A stretch of 64,000 nucleotides of DNA from Acidipila sp. EB88 (GTDB taxonomy: Bacteria; Acidobacteriota; Terriglobia; Terriglobales; Acidobacteriaceae). The stretch is from positions 2,356,001 to 2,420,000 of the forward strand of contig NZ_QWEV01000005.1 of the NCBI RefSeq assembly GCF_003858395.1. The letters are read 5' to 3'. Positions 43,834-53,891 of the stretch are shown one piece after another. Position numbers and translations under genes: made by a program. Position 1 is the first letter of the stretch. Each line of letters starts with the position of its first letter. Under the pieces are notes generated by a model, which was not told the origin of the DNA, searched no databases, and saw only the letters and a program-made list of their open reading frames with translations.

Positions 43834-44700
43834 ATGAGCGCGGCAATCGGTACACTTTCACCATTCGGCAACTGGGATCTGGGTCTGGCCCGTGTACTTC
43901 CGGGCGCGGACCGGGTCTCCCGGGTGCACTCCGAGACGATCCCCCCGGTTTCCGTGTCCGCCCAGAACAGAAGCGAGCGCATCCGTGCGAAACTTTGGCC
44001 TGCGATGGTACCGGTGCGCCGCTCGATGGGCGGGCATGAGGCGCAGGCTGCGGGCGCGCACCTTCCCGTGGGAGCCGTGATCGGGGCATCTGGTACGAGG
44101 GGGCAGGTGGAACAGGATTGGATCGTTGTGGTTGGGCGCTGCCTGCAGGGCGATTCACTCGCCTGGACGGAGCTTGTGCGCGCCCATCATGGACGGGTCT
44201 ACAGCCTCTGTTACCGCTTCACCAACTCCTCGCACGACGCGGAAGACCTTTGCCAGGACATCTTCCTCAAGGTGTACGGCAGCCTCAAGAGCTTCGACCC
44301 GGGGCGCGGTTCACTCACCGTCTGGGTCACCACCATGACCCGCAACCACCTGGTTGACCACTATCGGCGCTCGCGCCTTGAGCGTGCCTCGGACTCACTC
44401 GATGCGGGGTGGGACGAAACAGGCGAAGAGCAACGTGGCGGCGTGCGGCTGGAAGATACGCGGCCCGGCCCGCATGAGAATGTGCTGCAGCGGGAGCTGG
44501 CGCAGGAGGTGCAGGCTGCCCTTGCTCAGGTTTCGCCGGAGCTGCGCGAGGCTGTCATCCTCCGGGACTTGCAGGATCTGGATTACAAAGAGATCGCTAC
44601 GGTGCTGCGGGTTCCGGAAGGAACCGTGAAGTCGCGCATCAGCCGTGGACGAGCCGAACTTGCGCGCGTGTTGAGCCGCAAGGGAAAGCAGGTGAGCTGA
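43834..44700 (+). CDS. ECF-type RNA polymerase sigma factor
   Basis: The protein has sigma region 2 (ELVRAHHGRVYSLCYRFTNS, HDAEDLCQDIFLKVYGSLKSF, TVWVTTMTRNHLVDHYRR) and region 4 (LREAVILRDLQDLDYKEIATVLRVPEGTVKSRISRGRAEL), with nothing between them, so it is a group IV (ECF) sigma. From the ATG at 43834 it has 288 residues and an unusual 90-residue N-terminal extension. A GTG at 44107, three to four bases after GAGGGGG, would give the normal 197 residues and may be the real start. It overlaps the anti-sigma gene by one base, and that gene is its likely antagonist. Confidence 0.9.
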   Translation: MSAAIGTLSPFGNWDLGLARVLPGADRVSRVHSETIPPVSVSAQNRSERIRAKLWPAMVPVRRSMGGHEAQAAGAHLPVGAVIGASGTRGQVEQDWIVVVGRCLQGDSLAWTELVRAHHGRVYSLCYRFTNSSHDAEDLCQDIFLKVYGSLKSFDPGRGSLTVWVTTMTRNHLVDHYRRSRLERASDSLDAGWDETGEEQRGGVRLEDTRPGPHENVLQRELAQEVQAALAQVSPELREAVILRDLQDLDYKEIATVLRVPEGTVKSRISRGRAELARVLSRKGKQVS

Positions 44701-45479
44701 TGGACCCGAACCGGAAACCGGACGTATTCGGCAAAGAGGGAGAGCCGCAACATGCGGAAGACCTCGATTGCATGCGCTGGGAAGCAGCACTGGTTGACCT
44801 GCTGGACGGCACGCTTTCGCCGGAGGAAGCCGCGGCGTTTACCCGCCACGCGGAGAGCTGCGAACCGTGCCGGGTGTTGCTTGAAGAGACCACCCGGGGT
44901 CGGGACTGGGCCAAGCTGCTCCACGAGGAGCCGCCAGTCGTGCCGGAGGCGCTGCTGGGCAAGATCCTGGCGCGCACCGGCCCCGCCGCCGGTCCTGTCT
45001 CGCTGAGCGGTGAACACGCTCTGCCCCTCGTGGTCGATGGATCGGCCATGCCGGGCGGGAACGTGATGGCGATGCCGGCGCCGGGCTGGCACGTGCGCGG
45101 GCAGAGGGAAGCGCGCGTGCTGATGACCGCGGCAATGGCCTTCTTCTCGATTGGGCTGACGCTTTCATTTTCAGGATTCCGGCCAGCCGACCTTGGCAGT
45201 GCCATCCACGCGCCGTCCTCCATTGGCGCGATTGCGTCACGGCACTTCTTCGATACCAAGAAGCAGGTAGTGGCGTTTTACGACAATCTGCGCCTGGTGC
45301 GGGAGATGGAGTCCACAGTGCAGGACCTCCGCCAGAGTGCTGATCAACAGCTGGACCAGATCCAAAAGAACAAGGGCGTGCGCAAAGGCACGCCAACCGC
45401 GCAAGGCGATGCGGCGGATACTCCGCTCCTGGCCCATAGCGACTTTGTTTCCCAGGCCGAGGAAAGGACCACCCTATGA
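44700..45479 (+). CDS. Zinc-containing transmembrane anti-sigma factor
   Basis: The 259-residue protein starts with a ZAS-type anti-sigma domain: LVDLLDGTLSPEEAAAFTRH and the zinc motif His50-x3-Cys54-x2-Cys57. A single transmembrane helix follows (about 140-158, VLMTAAMAFFSIGLTLSF). The outer part is helical (MESTVQDLRQSADQQLDQI). It should hold the sigma factor at the membrane until an envelope signal releases it. It overlaps the sigma gene (TGATG) and the next gene (ATGA). Confidence 0.88.
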   Translation: MDPNRKPDVFGKEGEPQHAEDLDCMRWEAALVDLLDGTLSPEEAAAFTRHAESCEPCRVLLEETTRGRDWAKLLHEEPPVVPEALLGKILARTGPAAGPVSLSGEHALPLVVDGSAMPGGNVMAMPAPGWHVRGQREARVLMTAAMAFFSIGLTLSFSGFRPADLGSAIHAPSSIGAIASRHFFDTKKQVVAFYDNLRLVREMESTVQDLRQSADQQLDQIQKNKGVRKGTPTAQGDAADTPLLAHSDFVSQAEERTTL

Positions 45480-46675
45480 ATTGCGCAAATCACCCTGAGC
45501 GCACGGCCACCGCCTTTTGCCAGAACTGCGGCAAGCCTCTTTGTTCTGAATGCACCCGCCATGCGGGCAACCTGATCCTGTGTGAGCCGTGCCTCGAAGC
45601 ACGCAACGCCGCTGCCGGGCAAACCGCCGCTACGCCCTCCAGCGCGCAGGGCTGGACGCCCATCCCGCCTTCGGCTGCCCCACGGTATGCGGCGCAGCCC
45701 GGCGCCCCCATGCCACCCTATGCTTCGGGTCGCCCCAAGCCGGTGGTGGCTGCACTGCTGGGGTTCATTCCGGGCGTGGGCGCCATGTACAACGGGCAGT
45801 TTGTGAAAGCCCTGCTGCACGTCGTGATCTTTATCGTCCTGATCGGCGCCACCGAGCACTTTGACCTGATCGGCATCCTGATCCCCGCGTGGATCTTCTA
45901 CCAGGTCTTCGACGCAGCACAGACAGCCGCGGCGCGCCGGGATGGCCGCCCGCTTCCGGACCCTTTCGGCATTCTCGACATGAGCCAGCGTCTGGGTCCG
46001 CAGGGCTTCCACGGAGCGCCGGGCGGCTACCGTGGACCCATGGCCGGCGGCTATCGACCCAGCACGGCGCCCCCCACTCGTCCGCTCGCAGCGGACGAGG
46101 ACCCTTCCGCGCCGCGTACGGCATCGTCGGATCCATACGCCAATGTGTCCGGACAGGCTGCGCAGGGGGGCTTCAGCCAGGCTGCCTGGACTGCGCCGGG
46201 TGCTGCTCCTCCGGGGGCTGCTTACGACCGGCCAGCCGGCTGGAATGTGCCCCCGGTGAGTGCCCCGGCCAGCCAGCCTTTCGAGCCGACGTTTGGTGCG
46301 CAGTCGCGCACACCCATGCCTACACCGTACGGCGAGCCGGCACCACCCGCTCGCCGGGGTGAGCCCATCGGGGCGATCGTGCTCATCATCGTGGGGCTGC
46401 TCTTTCTGCTCAGTACGCTGGGTGTGCTGCAGGTGGAGTGGATTACCCGCGGCTGGCCCGTGCTGCTGCTGCTGCTCGGGGTTTGGCTCCTGATCCGCAG
46501 AGCCAAGACCCCGGCTTTGCACCACCCCGCCTCGCCGCCCATGCCTCCAGCTCCTCATACCACTACCTCGCTTACCAGGAGTTCGCTCAGCATCGCCCCG
46601 GAGCCGCTTCGGGGTACCGATCAAAGCAGCGATCAACGCACCGGCAACAACGGTGGTGAGGAGGACGCGCGATGA
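45476..46675 (+). CDS. B-box zinc-finger membrane protein with LiaI/DUF5668-like C-terminus
   Basis: The 399-residue protein opens with a B-box-like zinc finger (Cys3, His6, Cys15, Cys18, Cys23, Cys26, His29, Cys36, Cys39). Then come a TM2/DUF-like pair of helices (about 90-145, ALLGFIPGVGAMYNGQFVKA), a long Pro/Ala/Gly-rich linker (about 165-305), and two C-terminal helices with WPVLLLLLGVWLLI as in LiaI/LiaF-type proteins. It is the third gene of the sigma operon, overlapping on both sides by four bases. A role in sensing or tuning envelope stress is inferred. Confidence 0.8.
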   Translation: MNCANHPERTATAFCQNCGKPLCSECTRHAGNLILCEPCLEARNAAAGQTAATPSSAQGWTPIPPSAAPRYAAQPGAPMPPYASGRPKPVVAALLGFIPGVGAMYNGQFVKALLHVVIFIVLIGATEHFDLIGILIPAWIFYQVFDAAQTAAARRDGRPLPDPFGILDMSQRLGPQGFHGAPGGYRGPMAGGYRPSTAPPTRPLAADEDPSAPRTASSDPYANVSGQAAQGGFSQAAWTAPGAAPPGAAYDRPAGWNVPPVSAPASQPFEPTFGAQSRTPMPTPYGEPAPPARRGEPIGAIVLIIVGLLFLLSTLGVLQVEWITRGWPVLLLLLGVWLLIRRAKTPALHHPASPPMPPAPHTTTSLTRSSLSIAPEPLRGTDQSSDQRTGNNGGEEDAR

Positions 46676-48387
46676 ACCCCTTTTTGTTCCGTCGTATTCG
46701 TGGACCAGTGTTCCTGCTTTGCTTCGCTGTAACCGCCATCCTGGCGCAGTGGGGCATCCTCAACTTCGCTCAGAGCTGGCCGCTCTATCTCATCGTTGCG
46801 GGCCTGCTGCGGTTCTGCGAAGCCGTTTTTGGCAGTGTTCTGTTGCAGGGATACAACGCCGTGCCCGGCGCCCCGCTGGTGCGGCGCCCCTCGATCACAC
46901 TGGCCGTGTCGGAGATTCTGATCGGCATCCTGCTGCTGCTGATCATGGCGAACTCGCTGCCGTTTGCGACCTTCTGGCAGGCGTACGCCCGGTGGTGGCC
47001 GCTGCTGCTGATCGTCATCGGTGTGCTGCTCCTGCTGGAACGCACGCTGGACACATCGCTCAACCGCCGGGCTGCCGAGCGCTTCGGCCCTGGCGGCTTC
47101 TATATCCCCCGTCGGCGGCGTTCCGGCGGACTGGTGATCCTGGTGCTGATCCTGATCGCGACCGGCGCGCTGGGGCGCTGGGCCTCGTTTGTTCCATCGA
47201 ATGACTTTCACTGGGATCCCGACTGGAACTGGAACTGGTCTCTCACGGGCGAGACCCACGAGAACGATGTTGCCTTGGAGGAGCCGTTTGTGGCTAACGG
47301 CACAATCACGATCGACAATGGACGCGGAGATGTGGAGATCTCGCCATCCACGGATGACAGGATCCACGTCACGGCGCACCAACTGGCGCACGTCGCCGAT
47401 CGTGACAAGGACAAGGCGTTCCAGAACACCCGCCCCGTACTGGCTGTGCATGGTTCATCGGCAACCGTGACCGTGCCCGAGCGGTCAGGCGTGGAGGTGA
47501 AGCTCGTGGTCCTGGTGCCGGACAGCGCGGCGTGCACGGTCAGCACGCATCACGGCGACCTGTCGGTCTCTGGCTTGCGCAAGGCGCTTACCGTCAACCA
47601 GGACCATGGCAGCGTTGCACTGGACAGCCTCGGCGGCCCCGTGCGCCTGAAGATGGATCACGGAGATGTGCATGCCCGGGCGCTCACCAGCGACCTTGCC
47701 ATCGAGGGCTGGGCAGATGACGTGACCGCGTCCGATATCGGCGGCAGGGTGACGCTGAATGGTGATTTCATGGGCGACACCGAGCTCGACACGGTCAAGG
47801 GCTCGGTCGGCTTTCACTCCCACCGCACGGATCTGGACCTGGCTCATATGGACGGCCACTTCTCGCTGGACTCAGACAATCTGAAGATTGATGGTGCGAG
47901 TGGCGGCGTCAAGCTCAAGACGCGCTCCAAGGATGTCGAGGTCACCGGACTGAGTGGGGATGCGACGATCGTCGACAGCAACAGCGATGTGTCGGTGACC
48001 GGGCGGAAGCCCCTGGGTACAGTCACCATCGAGAACAATACAGGGGATGTCACGCTTGCGGTGCCTGCAGCCGTCGGTTTCTCGATCCATGGGCAGACGG
48101 GACAAGACGATGAACTGTCCTCAGAGTTCCCGCTGACGCAAAGCGTGGAAGGCGGCAGGAAGCAGATCGCCGGCCAGGTCGGAGCGGGAGGACCGCACAT
48201 CGAGTTGTCAACGCTGCACGGCGACCTGCGGATCCAACGCTCCAGCGGGGAGGGGATTGCAGTTCCAACTCCACCCACCCCGCCGACGCCTCCGGATACC
48301 GGCAATCTCCCCGGCACGGAGAAGAGGTCCGGCCACATCCGGCACCTCGAGACCAAGGGTGAGCCGCCGGTGCCGGTGGCTCAGTAG
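46672..48387 (+). CDS. Membrane protein with DUF4097 beta-strand repeat domain
   Basis: The 571-residue protein has about five N-terminal membrane helices (to residue 165, LiaF-like with WPLLLIVIGVLLLLERT). A large extracytoplasmic DUF4097 right-handed beta region follows (about 190-520: TITIDNGRGDVEISPS, SVALDSLGGPVRLKMDHGDV, VTLNGDFMGDTELDTVKG). The end is Pro-rich. DUF4097 proteins often follow ECF sigma or two-component systems for the cell envelope; their biochemical role is unknown. The stop is eight bases from that of convergent cmk. Confidence 0.85.
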   Translation: MNPFLFRRIRGPVFLLCFAVTAILAQWGILNFAQSWPLYLIVAGLLRFCEAVFGSVLLQGYNAVPGAPLVRRPSITLAVSEILIGILLLLIMANSLPFATFWQAYARWWPLLLIVIGVLLLLERTLDTSLNRRAAERFGPGGFYIPRRRRSGGLVILVLILIATGALGRWASFVPSNDFHWDPDWNWNWSLTGETHENDVALEEPFVANGTITIDNGRGDVEISPSTDDRIHVTAHQLAHVADRDKDKAFQNTRPVLAVHGSSATVTVPERSGVEVKLVVLVPDSAACTVSTHHGDLSVSGLRKALTVNQDHGSVALDSLGGPVRLKMDHGDVHARALTSDLAIEGWADDVTASDIGGRVTLNGDFMGDTELDTVKGSVGFHSHRTDLDLAHMDGHFSLDSDNLKIDGASGGVKLKTRSKDVEVTGLSGDATIVDSNSDVSVTGRKPLGTVTIENNTGDVTLAVPAAVGFSIHGQTGQDDELSSEFPLTQSVEGGRKQIAGQVGAGGPHIELSTLHGDLRIQRSSGEGIAVPTPPTPPTPPDTGNLPGTEKRSGHIRHLETKGEPPVPVAQ

Positions 48388-48395
48388 TCGCTGGC

Positions 48396-49175
48396 TTAGC
48401 GCAACTGTGGAGTAATCTGCCAGCGCTCGCATACCAGGGCGCTGGCACGCTCGATCACCTCGTCGAGCGACAAGCGGGTGGAGTCGATCTCCACCGCATC
48501 CGCCGCTGGTCGCAATGGGCTCTCCGCGCGGGAGCTGTCTCGCAGGTCGCGCGCGCGCATGGCTTCAAGCAGGTTAGCTGCATCGGCCGCGCTGCCCTGG
48601 ACCCCGGCATGCTCCTGGGCTAAACGACGCTCGGTACGGGCCTCTGGTGTTGCGGAAAGATAGATCTTGAGGCTGGCCTGCGGAAACACCACGGTGCCGA
48701 TATCCCGGCCTTCCATGACGATGCCCTGCGGGATGCGCGCGCCAAGCTGCTGCTGTAAGTCGACCATCCACGCCCGGATCGGGCCGTGCACGCTGACTCG
48801 CGATGCGGCTTCTGAAATCTCCGTGGTGCGGAGCTGCGCAGTGACATCTGAGCCATCAAGCAGCACGCGGTTGCCGGTCTCGGCTGGAAGCAGCTCGATG
48901 CGGGTGTGCTGACTCAGGCGGGTGAGCGCCGGCTCGTCCTCCAGGTCCACGTGGTTCTGCAAGGCCTTGAGGGCGAATGCGCGGTACATGGCGCCGGTTT
49001 CGATCTTGAGCAGCCCGAACCGTTGCGCCATCCGGGCGGCTACCGTGCTTTTTCCTGCGCCGGCCGGCCCATCAATGGCCAGGATGCGGTTGTCGGGAGG
49101 CGTGCCTCCCGACGTTTGTGTAACCGCGTGATCCGCCGAGGGGGCGGATGATGAGCTTTGTGAAGGCTGCGTCAT
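48396..49175 (-). CDS. cmk: Cytidylate kinase
   Basis: The 259-residue enzyme phosphorylates CMP and dCMP. The P-loop is GPAGAGKST at 36-44 after a 28-residue Ser/Gln/Thr-rich N-terminal extension; KIETGAMYRAFALKAL, VSVHGPIRAWMVDLQQQLG and GIVMEGRDIGTVVFPQASLKIYL are the expected CMP-binding and lid regions. The ATG overlaps the stop of the repeat-protein gene (ATGA), and AGGA within that gene serves as the ribosome-binding site. In many bacteria cmk precedes rpsA; here it ends a mutL-repeat protein-cmk unit. Confidence 0.95.
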   Translation of the reverse strand: MTQPSQSSSSAPSADHAVTQTSGGTPPDNRILAIDGPAGAGKSTVAARMAQRFGLLKIETGAMYRAFALKALQNHVDLEDEPALTRLSQHTRIELLPAETGNRVLLDGSDVTAQLRTTEISEAASRVSVHGPIRAWMVDLQQQLGARIPQGIVMEGRDIGTVVFPQASLKIYLSATPEARTERRLAQEHAGVQGSAADAANLLEAMRARDLRDSSRAESPLRPAADAVEIDSTRLSLDEVIERASALVCERWQITPQLR

Positions 49176-51811
49176 CCGTCCTTCCTTGGACCTTTGCCTC
49201 CTGGCTTGCGAGGCGGCGCGCCTGGTTTACGGCCGCTCGCGGGCTTGCCGGGGCGACCTGCGCGCGGGCCGGGCCGTCCGGTGGCGCCAACGCCGGCGCG
49301 TGGCTTGCCGGAGGACGTAAACGGCGTGCTGCGGGGGCGCTTGCCAGGCTTGCCGGCACCCGCGGGTGCGCCGGGCCGAGCCGGGCGACCATCTTCCGGG
49401 GAGAAGCGCTTGGGCGCCGTGCCCGGTGCACCGGTGCGACGCGGAGTGCTGGCTCCACCTATGAAGCTGGGGCGACCACCTTCACGCGGGGTAAAGGGTT
49501 TGCGATCTCCACCACCGAATGCCGGACGGCCACCTTCACGCGGAGTGAACGGCTTGCGATCCCCACCGCCGAAGCTGGGACGACCACCTTCACGCGGGGT
49601 AAAGGGCTTGCGATCACCACCACCGAAGCTGGGGCGGCCACCTTCACGCGGGGTAAACGGCTTGCGATCTCCACCACCCAACGCCGGGCGACCACCTTCA
49701 CGTGGGGTAAACGGCTTGCGATCGCCACCACCGAAGCTGGGTCGGCCACCTTCGCGCGGGGTAAAGGGCTTGCGATCCCCACCACCGAAGCTGGGGCGAC
49801 CACCTTCACGGGGGGTAAAGGGCTTGCGATCCCCTCCACCTGTGAAGCTGGGACGACCACCTTCACGCGGGGTAAAGGGCTTGCGATCGCCACCACCGAA
49901 GCTGGGGCGACCACCTTCACGCGGGGTAAAGGGCTTGCGATCTCCACCACCGAAGCTGGGGCGGCCGCCTTCACGCGGGGTGAAAGGCTTGCGATCTCCA
50001 CCACCGAAGCTGGGACGGCCGCCTTCACGCGGGGTGAAGGGCTTGCGATCGCCACCACCGAAGCTGGGACGGCCACCTTCACGCGGGGTAAAGGGCTCGC
50101 GATCCCCACCACCGAAGCTGGGGCGGCCGCCTTCACGCGGGGTGAACGGCTTGCGATCGCCACCACCGAGGCTGGGACGGCCACCTTCACGCGGGGTGAA
50201 CGGCTTGCGATCGCCACCACCGAACGCCGGGCGACCACCTTCACGCGGGGTGAAGGGTTTGCGATCCCCACCGCCGAAGCTGGGGCGACCACCTTCACGC
50301 GGGGTGAACGGCTTGCGATCCCCTCCACCTGTGAAGCTGGGACGACCACCTTCACGCGGGGTAAAGGGCTTGCGGTCGCCAGCACCAAAGCTGGGACGGC
50401 CACCTTCACGCGGGGTGAACGGCTTGCGATCTCCTCCACCTGTGAAGCTGGGACGGCCACCTTCACGCGGGGTGAACGGCTTATGATCTTCCTTCCACGG
50501 CTCCTGCGCATGGAACGGCTTCTGCTCACCCGGAGCAGCATCGCCGCCCGCACTGGCTGTGCGCGTGAATGGCTTGCGCTCGCCGCCGAAGGTTTTGCCG
50601 GGGCCATACGGACGGCTTGTGGACTGCTTACGATCGCCAAAGCTCGATCGACCGGCACCGTAGCTCTTGCGCTCGCCGCCTCGATCCGCACCACGCTCGC
50701 TTCCGGGCCGCGCGCCAAAACCGCGCCGGTCGCCGGCGCTGCCACTGCGCTGTGCCACGAAGCGCTTGCGCCCTTCGCCGATGGTGCGCTCCTGCTCGGT
50801 TTCTGTGTCGGAAAGTGCCTCGATCCGGAAGCTGCCTTCTTCGCCATGCACGACAACTGCTGCAGGCGCCTCGGTCTCCGGCAGCATGTCGGCAAGGGGA
50901 GAGCTTCTGGGAGCAGGTGCATTGGTGAAAGCGGCCGGGGCCTGCTCGCGATCCTCTGCAAAGCTCGCGGTCGCGGGTTCTGCGAACGCAGGCAGCGTTC
51001 CTTCCACGTAGAAGTGCTCATGCGCACCCAGGTTGCGAATGCTGATCTGGCGTGTCGCCGTCAGCCCGCGCACTGCCTCGCGAATGCGGGAACGCGACGC
51101 CACGGGCGAGAGATATGCCTCGATCTCGTCGCCGGTTGCAGCCACCGCCGTCTGCAGGTAGAGCGAAACCAGCGCGGACAGAGCCATGCCCTGCGCCATC
51201 GCCGACCCTGCGGTCATGGCCTTCTCGTGGTTGCCTTCGAGCAGCTGCCAGCGGGTGCCTTCGGCCTCGGAGTACACCGGCTCGACGCGCAGCGCGGTCC
51301 ACAGCTCGGAGATGGCGCGCAATGTCGCCGACTCGGTAAGGTGCCGTCCAAGCTTAGTGGTGATCTCTTCCGAGGTCACAGCGCCGTCGCGGTCCAGGAT
51401 CTTCCAGACCTCCACAACCAGGGGAGAGCTCTTGCCGCGCGGTCCGCGCTTCCACTCCCGGTCGCCACGCAGGGCAAACAGGAAGGGCAGGGTGTCCTCG
51501 GTAGCCAGGAAATCCGGCTGATCGCCGGGGATGCCGAGCAGGTTCAGGGCAAGTACGTCGCCTGACGCCAGGAGCCGCCGCAACAGGTGCGTCGCGCTTT
51601 CAATGGCAGTAGGCTTGGGCGTGGCATTGTTTTCGCCGAGCGTGGCTTCAACAAACGAGGCGGCAGGAGCTTTGATCTGCGCAGTACGAGGAAGAAAAAG
51701 CGTGAAGCCGGCTTCGCGGAGCCATGCTGCGGCGTCCTCGGCTGTGAGCAGGGCATTGCCCTGCTGGCGCCATGCCGAAGCGCGCGCGTCTTGGAGCTGT
51801 TGTGCTGTCAA
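49172..51811 (-). CDS. Winged-helix-like protein with a 19-unit tandem repeat and basic tail
   Basis: The start is a TTG at 51811, seven bases after AAGGA, giving 879 residues. Residues 1-300 are ordered and contain a winged-helix-like segment (VVEVWKILDRDGAVTSEEITTKLGRHLTESATLRAISELW). This recalls AlkZ/YcaQ-type DNA-binding proteins, but I cannot name the family with confidence. Residues about 340-443 are a low-complexity Gly/Arg/Ser linker with decayed repeats. Residues 444-783 hold 19 copies of KPFTPREGGRPSFGGGDR, and 784-879 are a Lys/Arg/Pro/Gly tail. The repeats are strongly basic and RGG-like, suggesting nucleic-acid binding. It lies between mutL and cmk. Confidence 0.85.
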   Translation of the reverse strand: MTAQQLQDARASAWRQQGNALLTAEDAAAWLREAGFTLFLPRTAQIKAPAASFVEATLGENNATPKPTAIESATHLLRRLLASGDVLALNLLGIPGDQPDFLATEDTLPFLFALRGDREWKRGPRGKSSPLVVEVWKILDRDGAVTSEEITTKLGRHLTESATLRAISELWTALRVEPVYSEAEGTRWQLLEGNHEKAMTAGSAMAQGMALSALVSLYLQTAVAATGDEIEAYLSPVASRSRIREAVRGLTATRQISIRNLGAHEHFYVEGTLPAFAEPATASFAEDREQAPAAFTNAPAPRSSPLADMLPETEAPAAVVVHGEEGSFRIEALSDTETEQERTIGEGRKRFVAQRSGSAGDRRGFGARPGSERGADRGGERKSYGAGRSSFGDRKQSTSRPYGPGKTFGGERKPFTRTASAGGDAAPGEQKPFHAQEPWKEDHKPFTPREGGRPSFTGGGDRKPFTPREGGRPSFGAGDRKPFTPREGGRPSFTGGGDRKPFTPREGGRPSFGGGDRKPFTPREGGRPAFGGGDRKPFTPREGGRPSLGGGDRKPFTPREGGRPSFGGGDREPFTPREGGRPSFGGGDRKPFTPREGGRPSFGGGDRKPFTPREGGRPSFGGGDRKPFTPREGGRPSFGGGDRKPFTPREGGRPSFTGGGDRKPFTPREGGRPSFGGGDRKPFTPREGGRPSFGGGDRKPFTPREGGRPALGGGDRKPFTPREGGRPSFGGGDRKPFTPREGGRPSFGGGDRKPFTPREGGRPAFGGGDRKPFTPREGGRPSFIGGASTPRRTGAPGTAPKRFSPEDGRPARPGAPAGAGKPGKRPRSTPFTSSGKPRAGVGATGRPGPRAGRPGKPASGRKPGAPPRKPGGKGPRKDG
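49463..50482 (-). repeat. 19-copy 54-base coding tandem repeat
   Basis: I count 19 units, mostly of 54 bases, with the three that read SFT (units 1, 3 and 12) being 57. Protein variation is confined to a few places: S/A and F/L after GGRP, the inserted T, GAG for GGG in unit 2, and E for K in unit 8. Many changes are synonymous (CGG/CGC, GGT/GGG), so the array is old enough to have diverged yet held at protein level. It is a coding array without unique spacers, not CRISPR. Confidence 0.97.
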
Positions 51812-51890: not shown

Positions 51891-53891
51891 CTAAATGCGC
51901 TGAAACGCCCGCTGGATGTCTTTCCAAGAATACCGCAATGCGATCGGACGTCCATGCGGACAGCTCGTTGGATGCTCGGTTTTACCTAACTCAGACAAAA
52001 GCCACCGCATTCGCTCGGGATCAAGCGGCATATTGACCTTGATTGCGGCATGGCAGGCGATCGATGCGGCGATGCGCGTGCGTGCCGCTTCGAGGTTTTC
52101 TGTCTGCTCGTGCTCGGCCTGCTCGAGCACCTCGGCCACCATGCGCTCGAGCGAGCGACCTTCGAGGCCGATCGGGGCTGCCTTGATCGCGATGGTGCGC
52201 GGGCCAAATGGCTCCGCTTCGAACCCGTTGCGCTCCAGTTCGCGGGCAATCCCCGCAAACAGCACCATCTGATGCGGCTGCAAATCGATCAGCAGGGGCA
52301 TCAGGAGGCGCTGGCGCTGCACCTTCTCGACAGCACGCTCGCGCAGGATCTTCTCAAACAGAACCCGCTCGTGGGCAACGTGCTGGTCGATGATCCAGAG
52401 TCCCTCGTCATTTGTCGCGAGGATGAAGCTTTCTCGCAGCTGTCCGAGCGGCTTGAGCGAGGCAAGCGCGTTCAGGTTCTCCTGGGGCTCGGCTTCGGCC
52501 TGCTGCGGCAGCACTGGCTGCCCGTTTGGCCCTGTGTGGCCCACGGCTCCTGCCGCGAACGCGGACAGCGCGGCAGCCGCCGCTGCGAACGGCAGGTGCA
52601 CAGCTTCGGCCGGCAAAATGGGCGCGGCCAGCGTGAATGGCTCCGCGCCCGCGCTGAACGAACGGGCCCCGGCAGATCCGGCTTCCGCCTGGGCCGATGG
52701 AGGTTCGGAGTCCAGGTACTCGGACGGCGGCGTGATCTCGGTCAGGTGCTCGTGCTCGCTTTGCCCCGGCATCAACGCCTGGCTTGCCGTGGGACTGGCG
52801 CCAAGCGCGGACAAGAACGAGGCCGCCGGGCGCGCTTTCATCAGCGTGTAGCGAATCGAGTCCCGCACGAAATCGTGGATCAGCGACGGCTGCCGGAACC
52901 TGACCTCGGTCTTGGCTGGGTGCACATTGACGTCGACCTCGGCCGGCGGCATCTCCAGAAACAGGAGCATCACCGGGTAAGAGGTCGGCGGCATGACATT
53001 GCGGTAAGCCTCCGAGATCGCATGGAGGATGAGGCGGTCGCGAATCAGCCGCTGGTTCACAAACACATAGATGGAGTTGCGGTTGAGCTTCTGCAGCTCC
53101 GGCTTGGCGGTAAAGCCCGACAGGCGCAGGTGGCCCGGCGTGGGCGGCTCGTAGTGCTCGTCGCGCTTCCACGGCGGCGGCTCCGGGAGCCCGCCATGGT
53201 CAAAAGGGCGCTCTGCAGCCATGGGCAGCAACTGATCCAGCGTGTCGCGGCCGAAGATCTGGTAGATCCGCTCTTCGGGCTTCGCCACGGGTGGCGCGTT
53301 GAGCAGGGTATGCGTGCTCGAGAGCAGCTCGAAGTGCCGGTCAGGATGCGCCAGCGCATAGTGGGTGACGAGTGCGGTGACGTGCGAGGTCTCGGTCTGC
53401 TCGGACTTGAGGAACTTGCGCCGAGCCGGGGTGTTGAAGAACAGGTCCTGGATCGTAAAGGTGGTGCCGGCGGGCCCACCCGCGTCCTCGACCCGCGTGA
53501 GCTTGCCGCCCACGATCTCGATGCGCGTGCCGCTGGGTTCATCGTCGGCGCGCGTCAGCAGTTCCAAACGGCTGATCGAGGCGATCGAGGCCAGTGCCTC
53601 GCCACGAAAGCCCAGGGTTGCGATCTGCAGGAGGTCGTCGGAGGTACGAAGCTTCGAGGTGGCATGCCGCTCAAAGGCGAGCATGGCATCGTCGCTGCCC
53701 ATGCCATGACCGTTGTCGGTCATGCGGATGAGCTTGCGGCCCCCGCCTTCAATCTCGATGCGGATGCGCGTGGCTCCAGCATCGATCGCGTTTTCGAGCA
53801 GCTCTTTGACCACCGAGGCGGGCCGGTCCACCACTTCGCCCGCGGCGATCTGGTTGGCGACCTGGTCAGACAGGATGCGGATGCGGCCCAT
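51891..53891 (-). CDS. mutL: DNA mismatch repair protein MutL
   Basis: The 666-residue protein has a GHKL ATPase head (VANQIAAGEVVDRPASVVKE, ENAIDAGA, DNGHGM at 59-64, GFRGEAL at 94-100). A Pro/Ala/Ser-rich linker follows (about 355-475), then a C-terminal dimerisation domain. The endonuclease motif DQHVAHERVLFE begins at Asp502 and differs from the DQHAxxE consensus only by Val for Ala. ACHAAIK and the C-terminal CPHGRP are also present. It is therefore probably a nicking MutL, as in bacteria without MutH. mutS is not in the window. GGAG precedes the ATG closely. Confidence 0.97.
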   Translation of the reverse strand: MGRIRILSDQVANQIAAGEVVDRPASVVKELLENAIDAGATRIRIEIEGGGRKLIRMTDNGHGMGSDDAMLAFERHATSKLRTSDDLLQIATLGFRGEALASIASISRLELLTRADDEPSGTRIEIVGGKLTRVEDAGGPAGTTFTIQDLFFNTPARRKFLKSEQTETSHVTALVTHYALAHPDRHFELLSSTHTLLNAPPVAKPEERIYQIFGRDTLDQLLPMAAERPFDHGGLPEPPPWKRDEHYEPPTPGHLRLSGFTAKPELQKLNRNSIYVFVNQRLIRDRLILHAISEAYRNVMPPTSYPVMLLFLEMPPAEVDVNVHPAKTEVRFRQPSLIHDFVRDSIRYTLMKARPAASFLSALGASPTASQALMPGQSEHEHLTEITPPSEYLDSEPPSAQAEAGSAGARSFSAGAEPFTLAAPILPAEAVHLPFAAAAAALSAFAAGAVGHTGPNGQPVLPQQAEAEPQENLNALASLKPLGQLRESFILATNDEGLWIIDQHVAHERVLFEKILRERAVEKVQRQRLLMPLLIDLQPHQMVLFAGIARELERNGFEAEPFGPRTIAIKAAPIGLEGRSLERMVAEVLEQAEHEQTENLEAARTRIAASIACHAAIKVNMPLDPERMRWLLSELGKTEHPTSCPHGRPIALRYSWKDIQRAFQRI

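Follow-up and report, generated by a model that had tools for sequence, protein, structure and literature searches.

A protein of Acidipila sp. EB88 that joins a predicted AlkZ/AlkX-fold head, probably non-catalytic, to a long basic tail carrying a 19-unit repeat array

A gene of the soil bacterium Acidipila sp. EB88 encodes, between mutL and cmk, a protein in which a head of predicted glycosylase fold is followed by a tail of about 600 residues. As the sequence-only reading of the window (the whole stretch of 64,000 nucleotides analysed here) had described, this tail is a basic chain rich in Gly and Arg; it is rich in Pro and Phe, too. With a confidence that stays somewhat short of even, we propose that a glycosylase-fold protein has been turned into a non-catalytic binder or tether of nucleic acid, the tail replacing a lost DNA clamp; both the binding and the function are what we infer here. 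The array first drew attention to the gene, but the head-tail architecture is of more interest than the array itself. What the sequence-only reading had observed is confirmed here, and its interpretation is supported in part. The features discussed below are collected in Table 1.

Table 1. Features of the gene and its neighbours (positions in the window)
Feature	Position	Strand	Remarks
Whole gene, 879 aa	49172..51811	(-)	probable TTG start 51811, stop TGA 49172-49174
Head, three predicted winged helices, AlkZ/AlkX (HTH_42) fold, without catalytic QxD/QxQ or C-terminal beta-subdomain	50978..51811	(-)	
Residues L38-F39-L40, aligned to AlkX catalytic QxD (Tfu Q56, D58)	51692..51700	(-)	inferred register
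Tail motif GEGRKRFVAQR, about residues 345-355	50749..50779	(-)	41/121 sequences scanned; mostly invariant in 19 aligned
Tail motif with EPWKED, about residues 433-442, immediately preceding the array	50486..50513	(-)	29/121; nearly invariant in 19 aligned
Array, 19 units KPFTPREGGRPSFGGGDR	49448..50482	(-)	residues 444-788, as whole units
C-terminal block KRPRSTPFTSSGKPRAGVGATGRPG	49268..49342	(-)	PRT-FTSSGKPR pattern in 32/121; many invariant columns in 19 aligned
mutL, upstream neighbour	51891..53891	(-)	
cmk, downstream neighbour	48396..49175	(-)	start overlaps gene stop by 4 bases

The gene probably starts at the TTG, which is preceded by AAGGA, and not at the ATG at 51955, a position that falls within mutL. 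At the aligned start position, TTG is present in 28 of the 42 named relatives (the others comprise one GTG, two sequences cut off and 11 without a start codon), and in a set of 29 loci TTG starts occur in 8/11 long-tailed loci versus ATG in 17/18 short-tailed ones. The position after mutL and the four-base overlap with cmk (ATGA), both pointed out from the sequence alone, recur in relatives, the overlap in 26 of the 39 named relatives with a closed frame. Open frames also run antisense through the gene (49148-51565 (+), 805 aa; 49194-50486 (+), 430 aa), and one of them also looks conserved because of the wobble pattern of the array. Downstream of cmk, the region 43834-48387 (+) encodes sigma-factor-like, zinc-finger-like and membrane proteins; the last of the group, which we take from its look to be beta-helical adhesin-like or of the DUF4097 type, adjoins cmk in a second genome of the genus (G001) too.

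The sequence-only reading had raised the possibility that close relatives lack the gene. Defining the family by the first 280 residues (the head), we found it in 48 of the 61 related genomes, in most cases close to mutL and cmk: in the genome itself, in 34 of the 36 others of its family, in 13 of the 14 from another family of the order and in 0 of the 10 from other families of the class. Named members belong to the Acidobacteriaceae (e.g. Acidipila, Paracidobacterium, Edaphobacter, Granulicella). Within flanks of 1.5 kb, 23 of 29 loci have both mutL and cmk, four mutL only, one cmk only and one neither; both neighbours accompany 37 of the 42 named loci, the remaining five being cut by contig ends, and in some Edaphobacter loci mutL lies a few kb off. 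One of the two misses within the family is G001, where the head search was empty. There, cmk stands at a contig start behind an open frame of 356 residues that carries the same C-terminal block, and a further contig edge truncates mutL; given these contig breaks, we reject absence of the gene and consider that the head was merely not assembled. No second gene of the family was found in the window genome, the sole other match being the antisense of the array.

The winged-helix-like character that had been attributed to the N-terminal part is recovered in the structure model of the head (pLDDT 92.8), which contains three tandem winged helices. Its best matches among solved structures are AlkX/YcaQ with DNA (9zd6), AlkZ (5uuj) and the C-terminal region of Lhr (7lhl), spanning 238-243 residues each, the next rows covering about 70. 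These matches to the model support the prediction that the head folds like the DNA-crosslink glycosylases AlkZ and AlkX/YcaQ, with their three winged helices. The profile search that the sequence-only reading had recommended agrees for the relatives but not for the window protein: among 29 relatives' heads, AlkZ-rel (PF24741) matched 24 and AlkZ-like (PF06224) 10 at E <= 1, four picked relatives exceeding the curated Pfam cut-offs, whereas the window's own head matched 0 Pfam families at that threshold. An NCBIfam search of the window protein and the relatives' heads gave nothing useful, hhalign gave no significant match between head profiles and YcaQ, whether the latter was used singly or together with 16 relatives, and searching the sequences of solved structures returned nothing at E <= 10 with the head alignment and a chance match only with one relative. 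The window head is slightly acidic (net charge -5), while the DNA face of AlkX is positive; across the family the head is near neutral (median -0.014 per residue). In some relatives (L012, P0156, P0165, P0218, P0222) the head contains a strongly acidic insertion, as though to offset the basic tail, with head net charges of -53 (L012), -47 (P0222) and -34 (P0218). The window genome contains no full AlkZ-like gene, only an Lhr-like frame that is a separate gene, and among the 15 same-family genomes listed a full AlkZ-like gene at E <= 1e-20 occurs in one (G007).

An RNA role is the main rival to the DNA-binder reading, and we judge it rather unlikely. The Arg/Gly-rich tail would bind RNA and the winged helices structured RNA, the protein serving in ribosome assembly or RNA turnover. 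Basic low-complexity tails are indeed common among RNA-binding proteins, and many family members in databases (JGI) are named 23S rRNA pseudouridine2605 synthase. However, Pfam and NCBIfam matched no pseudouridine-synthase domain in the window protein or in the 29 relatives' heads, three PseudoU_synth_2 proteins sit elsewhere in the window genome, and the nearest folds are those of DNA-repair proteins; the database name is likely a propagated misannotation.

On this common head, tail length differs by clade, from 2-67 residues in one to 118-662 in another. Net charge is positive in 72/72 long tails (median +0.12 per residue, 5-95% 0.09-0.17), of which Gly plus Pro make up about 30%. In 10/10 ortholog pairs, dN/dS of the tail (0.12-0.30) was higher than that of the head (0.01-0.14) and below 1, some dS values being saturated. 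Near the window, GEGRKRFVA, EPWKED and PRT..FTSSGKPR flank a variable middle; more distant long tails are without them. From these comparisons, the tail sequence appears to turn over fast, while net charge, composition and, near the window, the three short motifs persist. The tails of P0141, P0143 and L064 shift character midway or have an odd composition, probably through frameshifts, either genuine or due to sequencing errors, after which the frame remains open in the GC-rich sequence. In a full-length structure model the tail has a pLDDT of 30-52; as the head was also poor in the same run, this is weak proof of disorder, and the tail may be disordered.

After 9 of 109 rows had been dropped as duplicates, fragments or suspect frames, the tree of the remaining 100 heads places the 71 long-tailed rows on one side of a fully supported branch, and one further long-tailed row, L016, among 28 short-tailed ones; as many rows were gathered with long-tailed queries, the ratio of long to short is no census. 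A single origin of all long tails is disfavoured, the tree requiring two changes, though its well-supported branches force only one, and a second gain of a long tail in L016 is likely on this phylogeny. The linker that joins the first winged helix to the second has Trp at position 120 in 161/172 long-tailed and 0/137 short-tailed rows, 135 of the latter having Pro; L016 has Tyr. AlkX W124, which is reported to clamp the lesion from the major groove (PMC13303869), sits in the equivalent linker, the two residues having been matched by eye. That Trp120 ties the head to a long tail is suggestive only, one clade supplying nearly all cases.

Within the tail, TRF (49463-50482, period 54, 18.7 copies, 87% matches) and the minus-strand translation agree on the 19-unit array announced by the sequence-only reading; three units are 19 residues long and the last diverges at its end. 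Compared with one another in the gene frame, the 18 whole units give a pS of 0.35 and a pN of 0.028, hence a pN/pS of 0.08, against 5.7, 5.3, 4.1, 2.4 and 0.18 in the other five frames; the 0.18 of one antisense frame arises because its wobble positions are common with those of the gene frame. The synonymous differences had been read as selection for the peptide, and these ratios are a strong sign of it, although the units are not independent samples and the comparison is not a calibrated test. A recent DNA expansion had been envisaged as well. At the DNA level, 17 of the 18 whole units are distinct, with units 3 and 12 as the sole identical pair, and the units fall into 7 peptide types; adjacent units are no closer than after random reordering (equally low in 1525 of 5000 shuffles). 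The array therefore has no look of a fresh tandem expansion, a reading that we reject. It appears old and maintained at the peptide level, with the reservation that units within one array are not independent.

The number of units, which was to be compared in related genomes, showed that the array as such is not conserved. No other copy of the unit occurs in the window genome (the pattern GDRKPF has 17 matches, every one inside the array), and the unit is absent from the 356 tail residues visible in G001. Close relatives carry 2-13 [KR]PF.PR units, frequently of other length: the stretch from EPWKED to PRT..FTSSGKPR covers 134-403 residues with these 2-13 units in 17 relatives, and 383 residues in the window. 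In other genera the same tail holds arrays of 63 residues x 4.2 (Acidipila rosea), 44 x 3.8 (L068) and 33 x 3.1 (L048). The 63-residue array of Acidipila rosea (L033) contains a run of undetermined residues. We consider the window array, by this comparison, to be a lineage-specific expansion or state of a fast-changing tail.

Such turnover might suggest that the tail is nearly neutral filler, in which GC-rich slippage makes repeats and selection removes only stops and harmful residues. Unit type and length do turn over rapidly, and antisense and shifted frames remain open in the GC-rich repeats. We nevertheless find this improbable in view of the low pN/pS among units and the tail dN/dS given above, of the conserved motifs and of the charge kept in every long tail; moreover, no short-tailed row lies within the 71-row long clade (rows partly picked with long-tailed queries).

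Turning to the active site, the reported catalytic residues of AlkX are Q56 and D58 (Tfu numbering), and its beta-subdomain is reported to bear a DNA-binding loop (F319-Y336) that takes hold of the minor groove and is required for tight binding, its removal leaving binding severely curtailed (PMC13303869). E. coli YcaQ and 16 full AlkZ-like sequences of the phylum, the latter from 20 fetched loci, make up 17 comparison rows; all 17 have QxD at the catalytic site, within G-x-x-Q-x-D or a pattern near it, where the family reads G-F-C-L-M-Y-P or G-x-x-L-F-L-P. In the alignment of this site, 293 of the 312 sequences submitted fill the columns: under the inferred register, position 38 is Leu in 260, Gln in 0 and His in 1 (L055), and position 40 is Tyr in 134, Leu in 131 and Asp, Glu or Gln in 0. 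The profile comparison being non-significant, this register rests on structure, the relatives' Pfam matches and the local pattern. The structural alignment of the head with AlkX reaches no further than AlkX residue 293 and stops short of the loop, and the Pfam matches stop at 221 (P0006) and 244 (P0008) of 329 model positions, all of which (1-329) YcaQ spans. The catalytic residues of AlkZ/AlkX have thus likely been lost from the head, and the beta-subdomain with its DNA-binding loop appears to be missing from the family, with the basic tail in its place. The AlkZ/YcaQ assignment guessed from the sequence holds for the fold, by structure matches and relatives' Pfam, but does not extend to the catalytic residues or to the DNA-binding subdomain, and the head would be no glycosylase by the AlkZ/AlkX mechanism. 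Glycosylase activity may survive the loss of QxQ, since E. coli Lhr, whose AlkZ-like region lacks it, is reported to be a uracil glycosylase (PMC10953399), and the head has conserved Arg and Trp residues; but that it excises damaged bases via other residues, as for Lhr, with a tail that only raises local DNA affinity, is the least probable of the readings, the active residue of Lhr being Asp1536 of 1538, at the extreme C-terminal end, a part absent from the family, and no Gln or acid standing at the AlkX catalytic positions.

We therefore return to the non-catalytic binder. The head, as a relative of the crosslink glycosylases, would have a weak grip on nucleic acid, to which the positively charged, predicted disordered tail would add many weak charged and aromatic contacts, standing in for the lost clamp. 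Head and tail would jointly bind nucleic acid, most likely DNA because of the fold and the mutL neighbourhood, and the protein may tether or gather DNA strands without cutting bases, perhaps at damage. Such contacts would be governed by charge and composition, whatever the precise order of residues, which would leave the central part of the tail free to gain and lose repeats. A bolder version, which we hold to be unlikely, has a repair-glycosylase fold converted into a DNA organiser that is non-catalytic and forms condensates. The conversion would have happened once at the root of a large clade of acidobacteria and probably a second time in another lineage; the folded clamp would have given way to a composition-selected, repeat-generating tail, and the protein, produced together with MutL, would collect DNA that is mismatched or damaged.

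Described systems differ from this build in several ways. The interstrand-crosslink glycosylases AlkX/YcaQ (YQL; PDB 9zd6; PMC13303869) are matched at about 16% identity; the family lacks their QxD and has a long basic tail instead of the beta-subdomain and DNA-binding loop. Compared with the AlkZ and AlkZ-like self-resistance glycosylases (AZL; PDB 5uuj; PMC9040887), the family lacks QxQ/HxQ, and the window gene stands beside mutL and cmk and not in a biosynthetic cluster. The Pfam model AlkZ-rel, although several relatives pass its cut-off, has no tail, and the window's own head falls short of it; the Lhr region (7lhl) belongs to a helicase. Among described proteins, AlgP comes nearest as a working analogue without being a relative: according to PMC9239181, the histone H1-like AlgP/PhaF proteins have a folded N-terminal part and a disordered basic tandem-repeat tail that varies in unit number and binds DNA, the repeats of AlgP being of the KPAA type. 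The window protein would share this build. No relation was found, however: AlgP/PhaF combine KPAA repeats with a helical head, and the window protein a Gly/Pro/Arg/Phe-rich tail, in which Lys/Ala/Pro repeats of the KPAA type are absent, with winged helices. No paper on this head-tail build was found in a limited open-access library.

If the binder reading is right, a repair-enzyme fold has been turned into a binder, its ordered clamp swapped for a disordered tail kept for its charge and composition, and this would account for a family whose members are listed in databases as hypothetical or, wrongly, as pseudouridine synthase. The dozens of relatives that share the head but differ in tail length, from 2 to 662 residues, constitute a natural series for testing tail function in bacteria.
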